Assembly: GCA_002102555.1 (NCBI GenBank)
Contig: MCFL01000046.1
Coordinates: 124,001 to 188,000, forward strand
Origin: Catenaria anguillulae PL171
Taxonomy: Eukaryota > Blastocladiomycota > Blastocladiomycetes > Blastocladiales > Catenariaceae
Direction: 5' to 3'
DNA: 64,000 bases
This document shows positions 18,942 through 50,603 of this stretch, in pieces. A program made the translations under genes and the position numbers. The notes beneath the pieces are model-generated. The model had not been told where the DNA came from. It saw only the letters and a program-made list of their open reading frames with translations, and did no database searches. The number at the start of each line of letters is the position of its first letter. The stretch's first letter is position 1.

Positions 18942-20560
18942 GCTTGCTGGTGGTGGTGGTTGAGGAGATGTTTCTTGATGAATAGAGTTGTTCTGGGATG
19001 AGTGCCAAAGGTTGCTTTCAGTTCTGCATGAAACTTCATGGCTGGGTGACAGGATGATAAATGGGAATTGTAACAGGATGACCATCTCAAGGAATGGCGA
19101 ATTTGAACACAGCACCCCGATCTCTCGCGTCGAGAGACCTCCCTGCGAGACAAAATCTCAGTTGAGCACGCAAGGTAATCTGAAATCCGATGATGAGATT
19201 CACACAGTAAAGCATGGGCATCCACAGGTTACCGTACGTTCATGAATTCCCTTTGTCCAAGACCTTGCGACGTTTTGCGGTCAAAGTCAGAGGATCTTTC
19301 GGCCAAGCGCCCTGCGTCAGGGGAGCACCAATCAGAGCAAGGTAGAGGTTGAGAGGAACTAAGGAGAACGAAAGCATTTTGCGACCTTTCTTCCTGCAGG
19401 CGGCGTGCTCAGCTTCAGCGCTGGGTCTACCGAGGTAGGTAGTCGGACACGTGGCGGTGCCAGGACTCGTTTTCGCCGCATGCATGGTTGCCGTTGCATC
19501 TTGAGGCGGTCCCGCTGGGTCTCGCCCAACAACAATCATGGCAAAACTTTCGCTGCGCTAGTATCTTTCGTTCCCACCCCCGCATTTCATCATTTTTGGA
19601 TCACATAGCTCCGCGGAAACGTGCGTGCAAGTTTCTTAGGTACATACGTAGCTCTCTGATCAAGTATTCCTGAAAAACGCAAAGTGGAGACAAAGCGAGC
19701 GTTTCCCCGCACTAGTACTGGTCTGGCCTTTGATTCGTATGAAGCTGATGCAAGATTCACAGCCCAGAAAATGGTGCGGAGCTTGTTCTAGGCGGTTTTC
19801 TGTGCCCTCTAATGTGGCGAGAGAATCCGTCATGGGCCGGTGGGGTGTGTACTGCTTACCGGTTACCGGAAAACGCAATTCAGTCCTCATTTTGACTTTC
19901 TTAGCACCTCACCGACGCCGACAGCTGGGTCCCTTGCGACTCGTTGCGACTCAACGACGCCGTTTTGCGTGATTCTTTGCTCATCTCTCTTGCCCCCACA
20001 CTTTGCAGTGCATGTTGCGATTCGATGTTCCCACCTTTCATGCCACTCACCGGCGCAGGCGCAGCGCTCTCTATAGCAAAACATGTGCTCGTGCGCTCAC
20101 AAAAACATTCACACAGACATTCAAGATCCAAGCGGTCAACCAAATTGTGCAACGGCATACGGCACATGGAACTAAGCATGTGCCGTACATGCTCAGCATG
20201 GCGGTAATTCCGAGTCGTTTCCCACCCTCGGTCGGCGCAGCCGTGAATGCAACAACAGCAATTCGTGGGCTTTACTAGTGATCATGACAAACATTCAGAG
20301 GTCGTGCCCCGGTCGTCTCTGGCTCCTTATTTTGCCCCTCCCGAGACTTGAGCACTGCGACCGTGGCATGTGCCACATTCCGTCACCGGCGCGCCAGGGT
20401 ATAAAGAGCGGTCAAAGCCCGCCCATTTTCTCTCACCTGCTCAAGTCTACATGCAAGTTACAGCAAGCAACTCGGACGCGTCTCTCTCACTCCCACTCCA
20501 ACTCGTAGCTCCCATCTGCACCCTCTCTTCTCTCAACCTCCTTCACGTATTCGTCACACC
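18942..20560. promoter_or_regulatory. Intergenic region with TATA box of the repeat-protein gene
   Basis: The only convincing signal is GGGTATAAAG with TATA at 20400-20406, 161 bp before the ATG at 20561. It is followed by a pyrimidine-rich leader, consistent with a strongly expressed gene. The remaining ~1.4 kb shows no supported gene. Confidence 0.6.
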
Positions 20561-22084
20561 ATGTCGATCCCTCACCAAGTCAACATCATTGAGGCCAACC
20601 AAGCTTCCGGTGACCGCATCAACCAATTCCAGCACATTGACGTGGACGGTGTTGTCGTCTCTCCTCACTCGCACTGGTTCCCTAACCCGGCCGATGGTCG
20701 CGATGTCCAAGTCAACTTGATCCAGCAGAACGCTGCCTCGGGTCGCGACATTGCGCAATCGCAGCAGGGCAACATTGACGTGGTCTCGATTGGCGGGTCG
20801 CACTGGGGTACCGGTACCGGCGACGTGCAGCTCAATGTGATTCAAGCAAACCAAGCCGCCGGCTCGCGTATTGCCCAAAACCAAGGCGCCGATGTGGACG
20901 TGGTTGCTGCTGGTAACGGCTGGGGTCACTTGCACGGCTCGGGCGACGTCAACACCTTTGTGGGGCAGGCAAACCTTGCGTCCGGTAACAATATCTCGCA
21001 AGCCCAGTTTGCCGATGTGGATGTCGTTGCCATTGGTGCCGGTCATCATCACCATCACCATCACGGGTCCGCTGGCGACGTCAACACGGTCGTCTCGCAG
21101 TTCAACGCCGCGTCCGGTAACAACATTGGTCAGTTCCAAGGTGCCGACGTGGACGTGGTTGCGATTGGAAACGGCTGGGGCCATCTTCACAGCTCGGGCG
21201 ACGTCAACACGGCCGTGATTCAAACCAACCTCGCCTCGGGCAACAACATTGCTCAAGCGCAGTTTGCCGACGTCGATGTGGTCGCCATCAATGCCGGCCA
21301 CGGCCACCATCACCATCACCACGCCACTGGTGGCGACGTCAACACTTTGGTTTCGCAATTCAACGCGGCGTCCGGCAACAACATTAGTCAATTCCAAGGT
21401 GCCGACGTTGACGTGGTTGCTATCGGTAACGGTTGGGGCCACTTGCACGGTTCGGGCGACGTCAACACAGCCGTCATTCAGACCAACCTCGCGTCTGGGA
21501 ACAACATTTTCCAAGCCCAGCTTGCCGATGTCGATGTCGTTGCCATTGGTGCCGGTCATCATCACCATCACCATCACGGGTCCACGGGCGATGTCAACAC
21601 AGTTGTCTCTCAATTCAATGCCGCGTCCGGTAACAACATTGGCCAGTTCCAAGGTGCCGACGTGGACGTGGTTGCCATTGGTAACGGCTGGGGCCACTTG
21701 CACGGCGACTCTGGCGACGTCAACACCTTGGTGTCCCAATTCAACGCGGCTTCGGGCAACAATATCAACCAGTTCCAGTTTGCCGATGTAGATGTGCTTG
21801 CTCTGCACAACTCGTTTGCCCACGGCCACCATGGCCACGCGCATGACCTTGGCGACGTTATTACCAACGTGATTCAGACCAACATTGCCTCGGGCAACAA
21901 CATTAGCCAGGCTCAGTTTGCCGACGTGGATGTGTTTGCCGGTCATCATTCGTTCTCGACCGCGACCGATGGTGGCGCCCAATGGTCGGCGCACACGACC
22001 ACGATTGCCGATGGTGTTGCCAAGACAGTTGTCGCCGGCTCGGACTTGACGGACGCCGTGGTGACCACCACGACGCTCGCCTAA
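20561..22084 (+). CDS. Histidine-rich tandem beta-repeat (curlin-like) protein
   Basis: A single exon of 507 residues. Eleven tandem repeats of about 41-45 residues fill the protein. The consensus of the core is VNtxVxQxNxASGNNIxQxQxADVDVVAI: two short alternating beta strands around an ASGNN turn. The linkers alternate between an NGWGHLHGSGD type and a polyhistidine type with up to seven consecutive His. From repeat 4 onward they form 85-86-residue dimers starting at 20948, 21203, 21461 and 21719. The Gln/Asn ladder recalls bacterial curlin repeats, but the spacing differs, so homology is not claimed. The last ~50 residues are Thr/Ala/Val-rich without repeats. There is no signal peptide and no cysteine in the repeats. 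Predicted: a beta-solenoid or amyloid-like self-assembling protein, possibly metal-binding. A strong TATA box precedes it, and a paralogue lies at 49819-50463. The function is unknown. Confidence 0.85.
   Translation: MSIPHQVNIIEANQASGDRINQFQHIDVDGVVVSPHSHWFPNPADGRDVQVNLIQQNAASGRDIAQSQQGNIDVVSIGGSHWGTGTGDVQLNVIQANQAAGSRIAQNQGADVDVVAAGNGWGHLHGSGDVNTFVGQANLASGNNISQAQFADVDVVAIGAGHHHHHHHGSAGDVNTVVSQFNAASGNNIGQFQGADVDVVAIGNGWGHLHSSGDVNTAVIQTNLASGNNIAQAQFADVDVVAINAGHGHHHHHHATGGDVNTLVSQFNAASGNNISQFQGADVDVVAIGNGWGHLHGSGDVNTAVIQTNLASGNNIFQAQLADVDVVAIGAGHHHHHHHGSTGDVNTVVSQFNAASGNNIGQFQGADVDVVAIGNGWGHLHGDSGDVNTLVSQFNAASGNNINQFQFADVDVLALHNSFAHGHHGHAHDLGDVITNVIQTNIASGNNISQAQFADVDVFAGHHSFSTATDGGAQWSAHTTTIADGVAKTVVAGSDLTDAVVTTTTLA
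20945..21785 (+). repeat. 255-258 bp tandem coding repeats
   Basis: Within the repeat gene, three units of about 255-258 bp (each encoding one Gly/Trp-type and one His-type repeat) are highly similar at the DNA level, followed by a partial fourth. They include recurring stretches of CATCATCACCATCACCATCAC at about 21043, 21307 and 21557. The pattern implies recent duplication of two-repeat blocks. Confidence 0.8.
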
Positions 22085-22763: not shown

Positions 22764-24149
22764 TTACGGCTCGACATACAGCAAACGGTTGGGGGTAGAG
22801 CGGAGCCCGGTGATGACATTTGGCGTGGCACTCTTGATAAGTGCAGCAGACACTTCAGCAGGGGTCAAGTTCGGGTTGGTGCCAAGCAGAAGGGCTGCAG
22901 CGCCAGCAACGTGAGGGGCGGCCATACTATAATGACATGGGCCAGAATCGAGTCAGTCATCAGTCTTCAGAGCACCGGCCAATGAACGAGCGGGCTTCGC
23001 ACCTGGTGCCATCAATGGTCTCGATCCTTCCGTTGTTCCAAGTGGATTCGATCTTGACTCCAGGAGCAGCGACTAAAGGATGAACCAAGCATACAAATGC
23101 GTGAGACAAGGAACAAGATCAAGCGTCAGAGACGACGGGCAAAGGAGGGACAATGCGTACTGTCGACACACTTTCCCCAGTTTGAGAAGCTGGCAAGCCT
23201 GTCGTTCTGGTCAATGGCAGCGACGGTAATCCCGGACGGCTCGCGAGCGGGTGAGACATTGCACGCATCTGATCAACAAATGTCAGCGTTGCACCAAGTA
23301 AGCGAAGAGAAAGGAAAACAAACCTTGTGACTCATTCCCCGCGGCCAACACCATGACAACTCCGGCGTCCACGGCGGCCTTGACAGCAGCGTCGAGCGCC
23401 TCATCTGCTTCACCGCCGAGCGACAAGTTTGCCACCACCGTCTTGCCAGCCTTGCGCGCCTCGGAAACCACATACTCGATTCCTGCGATAATCCCCGACG
23501 TGGGGCCCCGACCGTTGCCATCCATCACCTTGACGGCCACGACCTTGGCCTGATCGGCCACACCAAAGGCCCTCGAAGCAACCGTTCCCGCAACATGCGT
23601 CCCGTGGCCGTTATCGTCCTTGCGGGGCCAACTGCTGTCGGAGGAAAAGCCCCAGCGTGCGCGGCCGTCGAAATTGGAATGACCAATGTGAATGCCTGTG
23701 TCAATCACATACACCGTCACACCATTTCCGGCAGTGTCGGGGTAGATGAACGGTGCGCCCGGCTCGCGCTGGCGCTGCGAAATGCGTCGCATTCCCCAGG
23801 TCGGGCGAGGGTTCGACGTCAAGACGCGCATGATGCGATCGGGTACGACGGCGGCCACGTTGGGGTTGTTCTTGAGCTTGGACACAAGATCGGTCGAAAA
23901 GGTGCCGGCAAAGCCCTTGATGGTGTGCTTGAACTCGCGGTCCAGAGCGTTGGTGATTCCCGAAGCATCCTCGCGAGAGTTTTCGCGAGCAATTTCGGCC
24001 TTGAGCGCACGAGACAGGGTTGAGTGGTCTGCTTCGGGCTTGAGCATGACAATGTAGCGATCGGGAATGGCGTCGGGTTGGGAGGTGGGAGCCGCAGACG
24101 CGGTGATGGCCAGCGCGGCAAGGGCGAGAATGAACGAGAAGGACTTCAT
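22764..24149 (-). CDS. Secreted subtilisin-like serine protease (proteinase K type)
   Basis: Four exons in phase: 24149-23324, 23268-23161, 23072-23003 and 22926-22764, with introns of 55, 88 and 76 nt. The protein has 388 residues, the usual length for fungal S8 proteinase K-like enzymes. Domains in order: signal peptide ([19 protein letters not shown]), an I9-type propeptide starting at IPDRYIVML, and a peptidase S8 domain. The catalytic triad is intact: Asp150 in VIDTG, His182 in NGHGTHVAG and Ser335 in GTSMAAPH, the last codon being split by intron 3. The oxyanion Asn is in AAGNES. CVDIAAPG and STW also fit the family. It is expected to be an extracellular endopeptidase activated by propeptide removal. 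A GGGTATAAAA box lies upstream. Confidence 0.93.
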
Positions 24150-24270
24150 TGTGGGTTGGATGGGTCTATGGTCTATGGATAGAGTGACTGGGGACGGGGA
24201 TGGGGCGAGCCGTTGGCCTGTTGCGGATGATGTGGGAATCACGGCCGGTCGGACAGGAGATGCGGGAGCC

Positions 24271-49818: not shown

Positions 49819-50463
49819 TTAGCAACCCGGGTTGATGGGCAAGATGGACACATCGCAGCCATAGTCGCCCGAGTGACCGTGATTGTACGCGCCGGAATCG
49901 TACGCATGACCGTGCTCGTACCCGCCAACATAACCTTGACCGTACCCGGCATCATACCCGGAATGCGGATGGGTCGGGGCCCAAGAGTTGTGGCCATGGA
50001 AGGCATCGCGCACAAACACGTTGACGTCGGCGTTTTGCGTCTGGTGAATGTTGTTGCCCGAAGCTTGGTTGGATTGGATCACATTGACCTGTGCATCGGC
50101 TCCGTGGTCGGCTTGGTACCTACCCGACCAATGGTGAGTGTGACCGTTTTGGGCAACCACGTTGACATCGGCGTTTTGCACTTGGTGGATGTTGTTGCCA
50201 GAGGCATGGTTGGATTGGATCACGTTGACTTGCGCATCGGCACCGTTGTTGTAGCCGTGGTTGTGACCATGGTGGTTGTGGCCGTGATGGTTGTAGCCGC
50301 CGTGGTGGTGGCCGTACTCGTGGCCTTGGTTGTGGCCGTACCAGTGCGGGTTGTGGTGGTGCGAGCCGGATTGGGCAACAACGTTAATGTCGGCGTTTTG
50401 CGACTGGTGGATGTTGCGGCCAAAGGCTTCGTTGATTTGGACAAGGTTGGAGTGGGCAGACAT
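49819..50463 (-). CDS. Histidine-rich beta-repeat protein, small paralogue
   Basis: A single exon of 214 residues. Three repeats carry the same core as the larger protein at 20561: NLVQINEAFGRNIHQSQNADINVVAQ, then VNVIQSNHASGNNIHQ and VNVIQSNQASGNNIHQ, each followed by an ADVNV strand. The segments between them are rich in His, Gly, Asn and Tyr (HNHHGHNHHGHNHGYNN). The C-terminal ~75 residues are a Gly/Tyr/His-rich tail (GYGQGYVGGYEHGHAYDSG). Two cysteines occur only at the very end (GCDVSILPINPGC). There is no signal peptide. The Gly/Tyr/His composition resembles phase-separating or adhesive proteins, and the repeats suggest a beta-stack. The promoter has the same GGGTATAAAG box 134 nt upstream. 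The function is unknown. Confidence 0.82.
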   Translation of the reverse strand: MSAHSNLVQINEAFGRNIHQSQNADINVVAQSGSHHHNPHWYGHNQGHEYGHHHGGYNHHGHNHHGHNHGYNNGADAQVNVIQSNHASGNNIHQVQNADVNVVAQNGHTHHWSGRYQADHGADAQVNVIQSNQASGNNIHQTQNADVNVFVRDAFHGHNSWAPTHPHSGYDAGYGQGYVGGYEHGHAYDSGAYNHGHSGDYGCDVSILPINPGC

Positions 50464-50596: not shown

Positions 50597-50603
50597 CTTT
50601 ATA
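50597..50603 (-). promoter_or_regulatory. TATA box of the small repeat-protein gene
   Basis: The minus strand reads GGGTATAAAG, identical over ten bases to the element before the large repeat-protein gene. Confidence 0.65.

Follow-up and report, generated by a model that had tools for sequence, protein, structure and literature searches.

The analyzed stretch of DNA, here called the window, comprises 64 kb (positions 124001-188000) on the contig labelled C399 of Catenaria anguillulae, which fits the fungal host and the Blastocladiomycota named earlier. Catenaria belongs to this group and is a nematode-killing, zoospore-forming fungus. The window harbors one intact open reading frame of 507 codons encoding a tandem repeat protein (the main gene, WIN1 in the family comparisons) and, on the opposite strand, a further gene of this family (WIN2; Table 1). 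A subtilase (S8) gene with an I9 propeptide, as is ordinary for a nematode-killing fungus, lies convergent with the main gene, and a cytochrome P450 gene is found further along the window.

Table 1. Features of the window, with positions counted from its first nucleotide.
Feature	Position	Strand	Remark
TATA-like box TATAAAG	20400..20406	+	161 nt upstream of main-gene ATG
Main gene, 507-aa tandem repeat protein (WIN1)	20561..22084	+	single uninterrupted frame; dN/dS 0.09; codon bias z=8.6
Repeat core 1	20567..20662	+	motif; begins at residue 3, right behind Met-Ser
Repeat core 2	20699..20794	+	motif
Repeat core 3	20819..20914	+	motif
Repeat core 4	20942..21037	+	motif
Linker His run H7, residues 162-168	21044..21064	+	
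Repeat core 5	21074..21169	+	motif
Repeat core 6	21197..21292	+	motif
Linker His run H6, residues 249-254	21305..21322	+	
Repeat core 7	21332..21427	+	motif
Repeat core 8	21455..21550	+	motif
Linker His run H7, residues 333-339	21557..21577	+	
Repeat core 9	21587..21682	+	motif
Repeat core 10	21713..21808	+	motif
Repeat core 11	21851..21946	+	motif
Thr/Ala/Val-rich tail of 45 residues, without repeats	21947..22081	+	
Subtilase (S8) with I9 propeptide	23286..24242	-	convergent with main gene
Cytochrome P450	46696..48417	-	
Second family member WIN2, 214 aa, 33 His	49819..50463	-	2 units by motif, 3 by profile; dN/dS 0.028 vs C104
TATA-like box of WIN2	50597..50603	-	140 nt upstream of its ATG

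The main protein is built of 11 units of approximately 42 residues with a spacing of 40-46 residues. Motif and profile agree on this number, and the eleven repeats counted before are thus confirmed. The motif QxNxA[SA]Gx4Q occurs ten times in the protein, whereas 5000 shuffles of its sequence averaged 0.0012 occurrences and never exceeded one; in unit 1 the first Gln is replaced by Glu. The spacing QX10Q is likewise found ten times, which was equalled in five of the 5000 shuffles, and on the DNA level TRF detects a 255-bp block of two units with a score of 1111. The ASGNN turn named in the earlier note is exact in eight of the 11 units, whereas units 1-3 carry ASGDR, ASGRD, and AAGSR, respectively. 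With a unit profile trained on 30 motif-collected units, 75 units were detected in the nine distinct family genes that are intact. This count is better than that of an earlier set of 74 units, since the collecting motif itself demands several of the conserved residues. Among the 75 profile units G15 and Q20 are invariant (75/75), followed by N11 and A13 (74 each), I18 (70), and S14 (69). The consensus unit of the family reads D-V-Q-T-N-V-I-Q-x-N-x-A-S-G-N-N-I-x-Q-x-Q-x-A-D-V-D-V within a core of 32 residues. Across the family, with the exception of C90/C38, units are spaced by 34-53 residues, and a single gap of 81 residues in C453 is due to a unit that the motif missed.

At least 16 loci of this family are present in the genome (41.07 Mb on 457 contigs were searched), and three different protein queries gave the identical set. 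Five pairs of loci, C399/C60, C399/C104, C301/C4, C406/C453, and C90/C38, match each other by 90-98% into their flanks, and these near-identical contig pairs probably represent two haplotypes. When the five pairs are collapsed, about 11 distinct genes are left, of which nine are intact. The two others, C290 (L017:1810-2376) and C335b (L019:1674-2645), have frame breaks inside the repeats and are either pseudogenes or assembly errors. Contig C335 carries two copies (L018 and L019) separated by approximately 19 kb. They agree by 98.3% over the 1.2 kb of the gene, and none of the matching pieces of at least 150 bases that were listed lies in their flanks; the copies may have arisen by a recent duplication or by gene conversion. 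The C60 partner of the main gene has 15 units and 676 residues, compared with 11 units and 507 residues in the window. As these partners are nearly identical otherwise, the number of units changes quickly.

The main gene is real and under selection, since 58.5 synonymous versus 19.5 nonsynonymous differences separate it from its C60 partner (dN/dS 0.091). For WIN2 against C104 the ratio is 0.028, and the other eight pairs range from 0.06 to 0.24, except for C406/C453 with 0.44. In view of the low dN/dS and the recurrence of the family at 16 loci, an artefact was rejected. Furthermore, codon usage is biased toward that of HSP70 and H3 in 11 of the 13 sequences, i.e., in seven of the eight distinct genes tested (z 5.3-12.6). 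The reference consisted of one HSP70 and histone H3, the expectation for the same residues was taken from ordinary window reading frames, and C101, C290, and C335b were not included. The z value was 13.8 and 14.9 for two HSP70 genes outside the reference and 3.5 for the rhodopsin cyclase; eight window frames, which also set the expectation and may contain intron sequence, ranged from -2.9 to 3.5. A guanylate cyclase domain encoded in this genome is identical in 180/180 residues to PDB 6SIR, reported to be that of the Catenaria anguillulae rhodopsin cyclase (PMC7384201). In C406/C453 the constraint is weaker and the codon bias is absent (z 0.1 and 0.3). From the codon bias we infer that most proteins of the family would be abundant.

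A TATA-like box is located 98-161 nt before the ATG in 11/11 distinct genes, with 0.087 expected per gene and with the pattern having been selected after viewing the sequences. The absence of a signal peptide, pointed out before for the main protein, is supported by the hydropathy of its first 40 residues, where the best 11-residue value is 0.91 and that of the CsgA control 2.57. By the same measure a leader-like N-terminus was found at none of the 16 loci, the family maximum being 1.02. An upstream exon encoding a signal was also considered and rejected, as the distance between the TATA-like boxes and the ATG leaves little room for it. Within the 150 nt ahead of the main gene there is a single ATG, which is absent from its C60 partner. 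Since there is no leader, the proteins are probably cytosolic.

The core of 32 residues is compatible with a single long beta-arch consisting of a strand, an S-G-N-N arc, and a second strand. In this arrangement the arch would close at the four-residue arc, and the positions of facing inward residues would all sum to 31, giving the pairs A13/I18, N11/Q20, Q9/Q22, V7/A24, T5/V26, and V3/V28. The core would then be layered, with an A/I cap beside the arc, an amide layer formed by N11/Q20 and Q9/Q22, and a hydrophobic layer formed by the three remaining pairs, so that a buried amide zipper would adjoin the hydrophobic layer and Asp25 and Asp27 would stand in rows on the outside. Over the 75 profile units conservation is higher at the proposed inward than at the outward sites (3.29 vs. 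2.30 bits, permutation P 0.0017; 2.89 vs. 2.30 bits, P 0.027, with the anchor residues removed), and charged residues account for less than 1% of the former compared with 15% of the latter, figures that have to be read in the knowledge that the register was picked after inspection of the data. The alternation is seen in strand 2 (2.96 vs. 2.08 bits, P 0.047; charged residues 0.7% vs. 27%), but not in the outer half of strand 1, where inward sites have 2.70 and outward sites 2.89 bits. Mutual information between facing positions does not single out the register either (0.003 for the sum of 31 vs. 0.048 for the sum of 29). The strand-turn-strand design put forward earlier is therefore partly supported, namely by the overall alternation and by the charge kept off the proposed inner face, but not for the outer half of strand 1. 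The Gln/Asn and Val/Asp ladders also require a modification, as Val points inward and Asp outward in the proposed arch, so that Val and Asp would be two ladders on two faces. The first arch begins within the first three residues of the protein, and the last one is followed by only 3-5 residues in six of the nine intact genes, the tails being longer in WIN1 (45 residues), WIN2 (61), and C406 (68).

Of the 43 histidines of the main protein, 39 are located in linkers or in the tail and four in the repeat cores. Polyhistidine or GWGHLH linkers had been described at each turn; a His run of at least six is indeed present in three of the ten linkers and GWGHLH in four, but the remaining three differ, and the linkers are placed at the edge opposite the ASGNN turn. 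In most members the loops have a high content of His, Gly, Trp, or Asn, and their chemistry differs within the family, being polyHis, Gly-His-Tyr as in WIN2, aromatic, or polyGln. The polyGln-rich member is found on C90/C38 (L020/L021), with an uninterrupted Gln run that is far longer in C38. WIN2 ends with Gly-Cys, as do several members (L010, L020), and this Cys is the only one of C301a (L010). A His content of only 3-4% is found in C406/C453 and C90/C38, and therefore His is not essential to the family; these two His-poor lineages suggest that the loops may vary as a decoration while the scaffold stays fixed. His (43 residues) and Asp (40), next to one Lys and four Arg, are almost the sole ionisable residues of the main protein, and its computed net charge consequently shifts from -32.7 at pH 7 to -2.3 at pH 5.5. 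Across 13 family sequences the computed net charge at pH 7 is -8.6 to -44.6.

No Pfam or NCBIfam family reaches its curated cut-off with the main protein, the best NCBIfam E being 0.0017. Eight family proteins were scanned, and neither PF07012 nor a HET-s family is among the Pfam matches at E 10; the best Pfam match of the seven other proteins is DUF4062 in one of the eight members (E 0.00065). Among PHROGs, 16 families match at E 1, 14 of them unnamed and each in at most three of the eight members (best 5.1e-06). In one member the best of these matches coincides with a His-rich linker, and none of the stretches passed when taken alone. A PDB search with the main protein gave 329 matches at E 10 (best E 0.0052), which were taken as tags and chance because many of the 60 listed begin at a His run, and nothing significant was found in PDB with the family profile (best E 0.044) or the unit profile (best E 2.7). 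Relatives were found neither in 5.8 billion proteins, where each search scored the 8000 candidates sharing most words, nor in plasmids and phages. Among bacteria and archaea, 84,980 species were covered by two scans limited by a sequence pattern, which matched 62 and 88 times; in viral contigs there were 133 such matches, and in neither group was a relative confirmed. As these collections are distinct from the reference eukaryotes and did not return the Catenaria family itself, the searches have no bearing on other fungi. None of the papers listed in literature searches deals with the repeat family. The earlier note knew of no described fungal family with this repeat, and neither the curated families at their cut-offs nor the solved structures gave a significant match. 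That the main gene is one of about eleven in Catenaria had been missed before. Within the collections searched the repeat family appears to be new.

The closest known design is that of the bacterial curlins CsgA and CsgB. According to PMC10192328, curlin has two N-$-hydrophobic-$-hydrophobic-$-Q motifs per unit of approximately 23 residues, an arc of the form X-G-X-X, and subunits that end in open-edged sheets. The likeness, which on the Catenaria side is partly a matter of the proposed arch, comprises tandem strand-arc-strand units with Gln and Asn ladders, a four-residue arc with Gly in second position, the QX10Q spacing in 10 of the 11 units of the main protein, open ends, and a variable number of units. 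However, the Catenaria core of 32 residues with a period of approximately 42 contrasts with an average of 23, the strands would have six and seven inward residues instead of four and four, and the ladder order would be A/I, N/Q, Q/Q, V/A, T/V, and V/V instead of N/Q, hydrophobic, hydrophobic, and Q/N; in place of the double motif the core reads V-T-V-Q-N-A / I-Q-Q-A-V-V. The second arc in Catenaria is long and often His-rich, and the Sec leader of curlin has no counterpart by hydropathy. Membership in the curlin family could not be upheld, as Curlin_rpt (PF07012) has no match in the genome, where the initial screen let no candidate through, while the E. coli control is positive, and CsgG is missing as well: the channel family (PF03783) has no match in the Catenaria genome with four positive controls. 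A profile comparison by hhalign gave a probability of 1.1% and a score that was equalled in 17 of 100 column shuffles, its power being low with only 11 E. coli repeats on the curlin side. A curlin gene acquired from bacteria, which would account for the QX10Q spacing, the Gly-second arc, and the open-ended arches, is therefore disfavored and in our view very improbable, also with respect to the different ladder order and to the pattern-limited scans of bacterial and archaeal species that confirmed no relative. The Catenaria proteins may work like curlin but are not classed as curlin.

Two other systems resemble the family in single aspects. HET-s is a fungal, leaderless beta-solenoid amyloid of stacked arches, as proposed here for Catenaria, but differs in being a signalling prion with two short pseudo-repeats. 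The metal-hardened proteins of worm jaws and squid beaks likewise have bulk stretches of His, Gly, and aromatic residues as possible ligands of Zn or Cu. They are secreted and are not known to contain an ordered arch repeat.

Our preferred explanation, held with somewhat less than even confidence, is that the main gene is a member of a group of about 11 leaderless, mostly abundant proteins which would stack into an open-ended beta-solenoid fibre in a pH- or metal-dependent manner. The 32-residue beta-arches would stack in register into a two-sheet, open-ended solenoid, and the subunits would join end to end into fibres, as suggested by the last arch being bare in six of the nine genes and by the first arch beginning within the first three residues. 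Acid or divalent metals at the His loops may then help the assembly, with the Asp rows contributing; this is proposed because His and Asp dominate the ionisable residues and the charge drops at pH 5.5. Such a switch need not follow from the Asp rows, since in an acidic curlin the kinetics of polymerisation were not significantly affected by pH and fibres formed even with EDTA, although more fibrillar aggregates were seen with Ca or at pH 4 (PMC10192328). As to the role, the fibre would most likely serve for structure or storage within the zoospore, cyst, or sporangium, which is a guess and the weakest step of this explanation. In a more specific form, about 11 leaderless abundant subunits, differing in length and loop chemistry, would co-assemble into a curli-like intracellular system that this early-diverging fungus invented independently and that is switched by pH or metal at the row of His loops, which we regard as unlikely.

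A rather unlikely alternative, and the one that comes closest, is that the beta-solenoid stays a soluble monomer, i.e., a rod in the cytosol that forms no fibres, with His loops serving to buffer metal or protons or to bind partners. The negative charge computed for pH 7 would separate such rods from each other, WIN2 has three units only, and the longer tails of WIN1, WIN2, and C406 fit a rod as well, the 45-residue tail of the main protein being one that could cap its own end. However, the 3-5 residues behind the last arch of most intact genes are too few for a cap, and even an acidic curlin is reported to form fibres (PMC10192328). It is doubtful that the proteins form an extracellular adhesive or wall fibre, exported without a leader and hardened by His and metal, with which the zoospore sticks to nematodes or encysts. 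Codon bias and repeat design would suit a bulk structural protein, as would the lifestyle of Catenaria, but the hydrophobic leader is missing at 16 of 16 loci, the protein opens with the repeat itself, and none of the papers listed in literature searches links the family with such a role. Slightly more doubtful still is a disordered, low-complexity His/Gln/Asn-rich protein acting as a condensate or metal sponge, in which the repeats are merely a by-product of tandem duplication. The richness in Q, N, G, and H, the lack of any strongly hydrophobic segment, the long polyQ run in C38, and the outer half of strand 1 without alternation point in this direction. Nevertheless, the position-specific conservation across nine genes, the low dN/dS, and the scarcity of charge at every other position of strand 2 argue against disorder.

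Altogether, Catenaria harbors a selected repeat family with a clear code, for which a fibre is plausible on the grounds of sequence although unproven. To our knowledge, few stacked-arch fibres of eukaryotes follow a clean repeat code. If the fibre is real, the family, which is leaderless and apparently abundant, would provide a new scaffold with a layered amide/hydrophobic ladder, both for fibres and for materials that display metal. If it is convergent with curlin, the comparison would separate the required parts, namely a Gly-containing four-residue arc, paired amide ladders, and open ends, from those that are free to vary. Descriptions of adhesins are reported to be rare outside the Ascomycota (PMC6023273), and the repeat proteins would give the Blastocladiomycota a structural protein family that can be tested.
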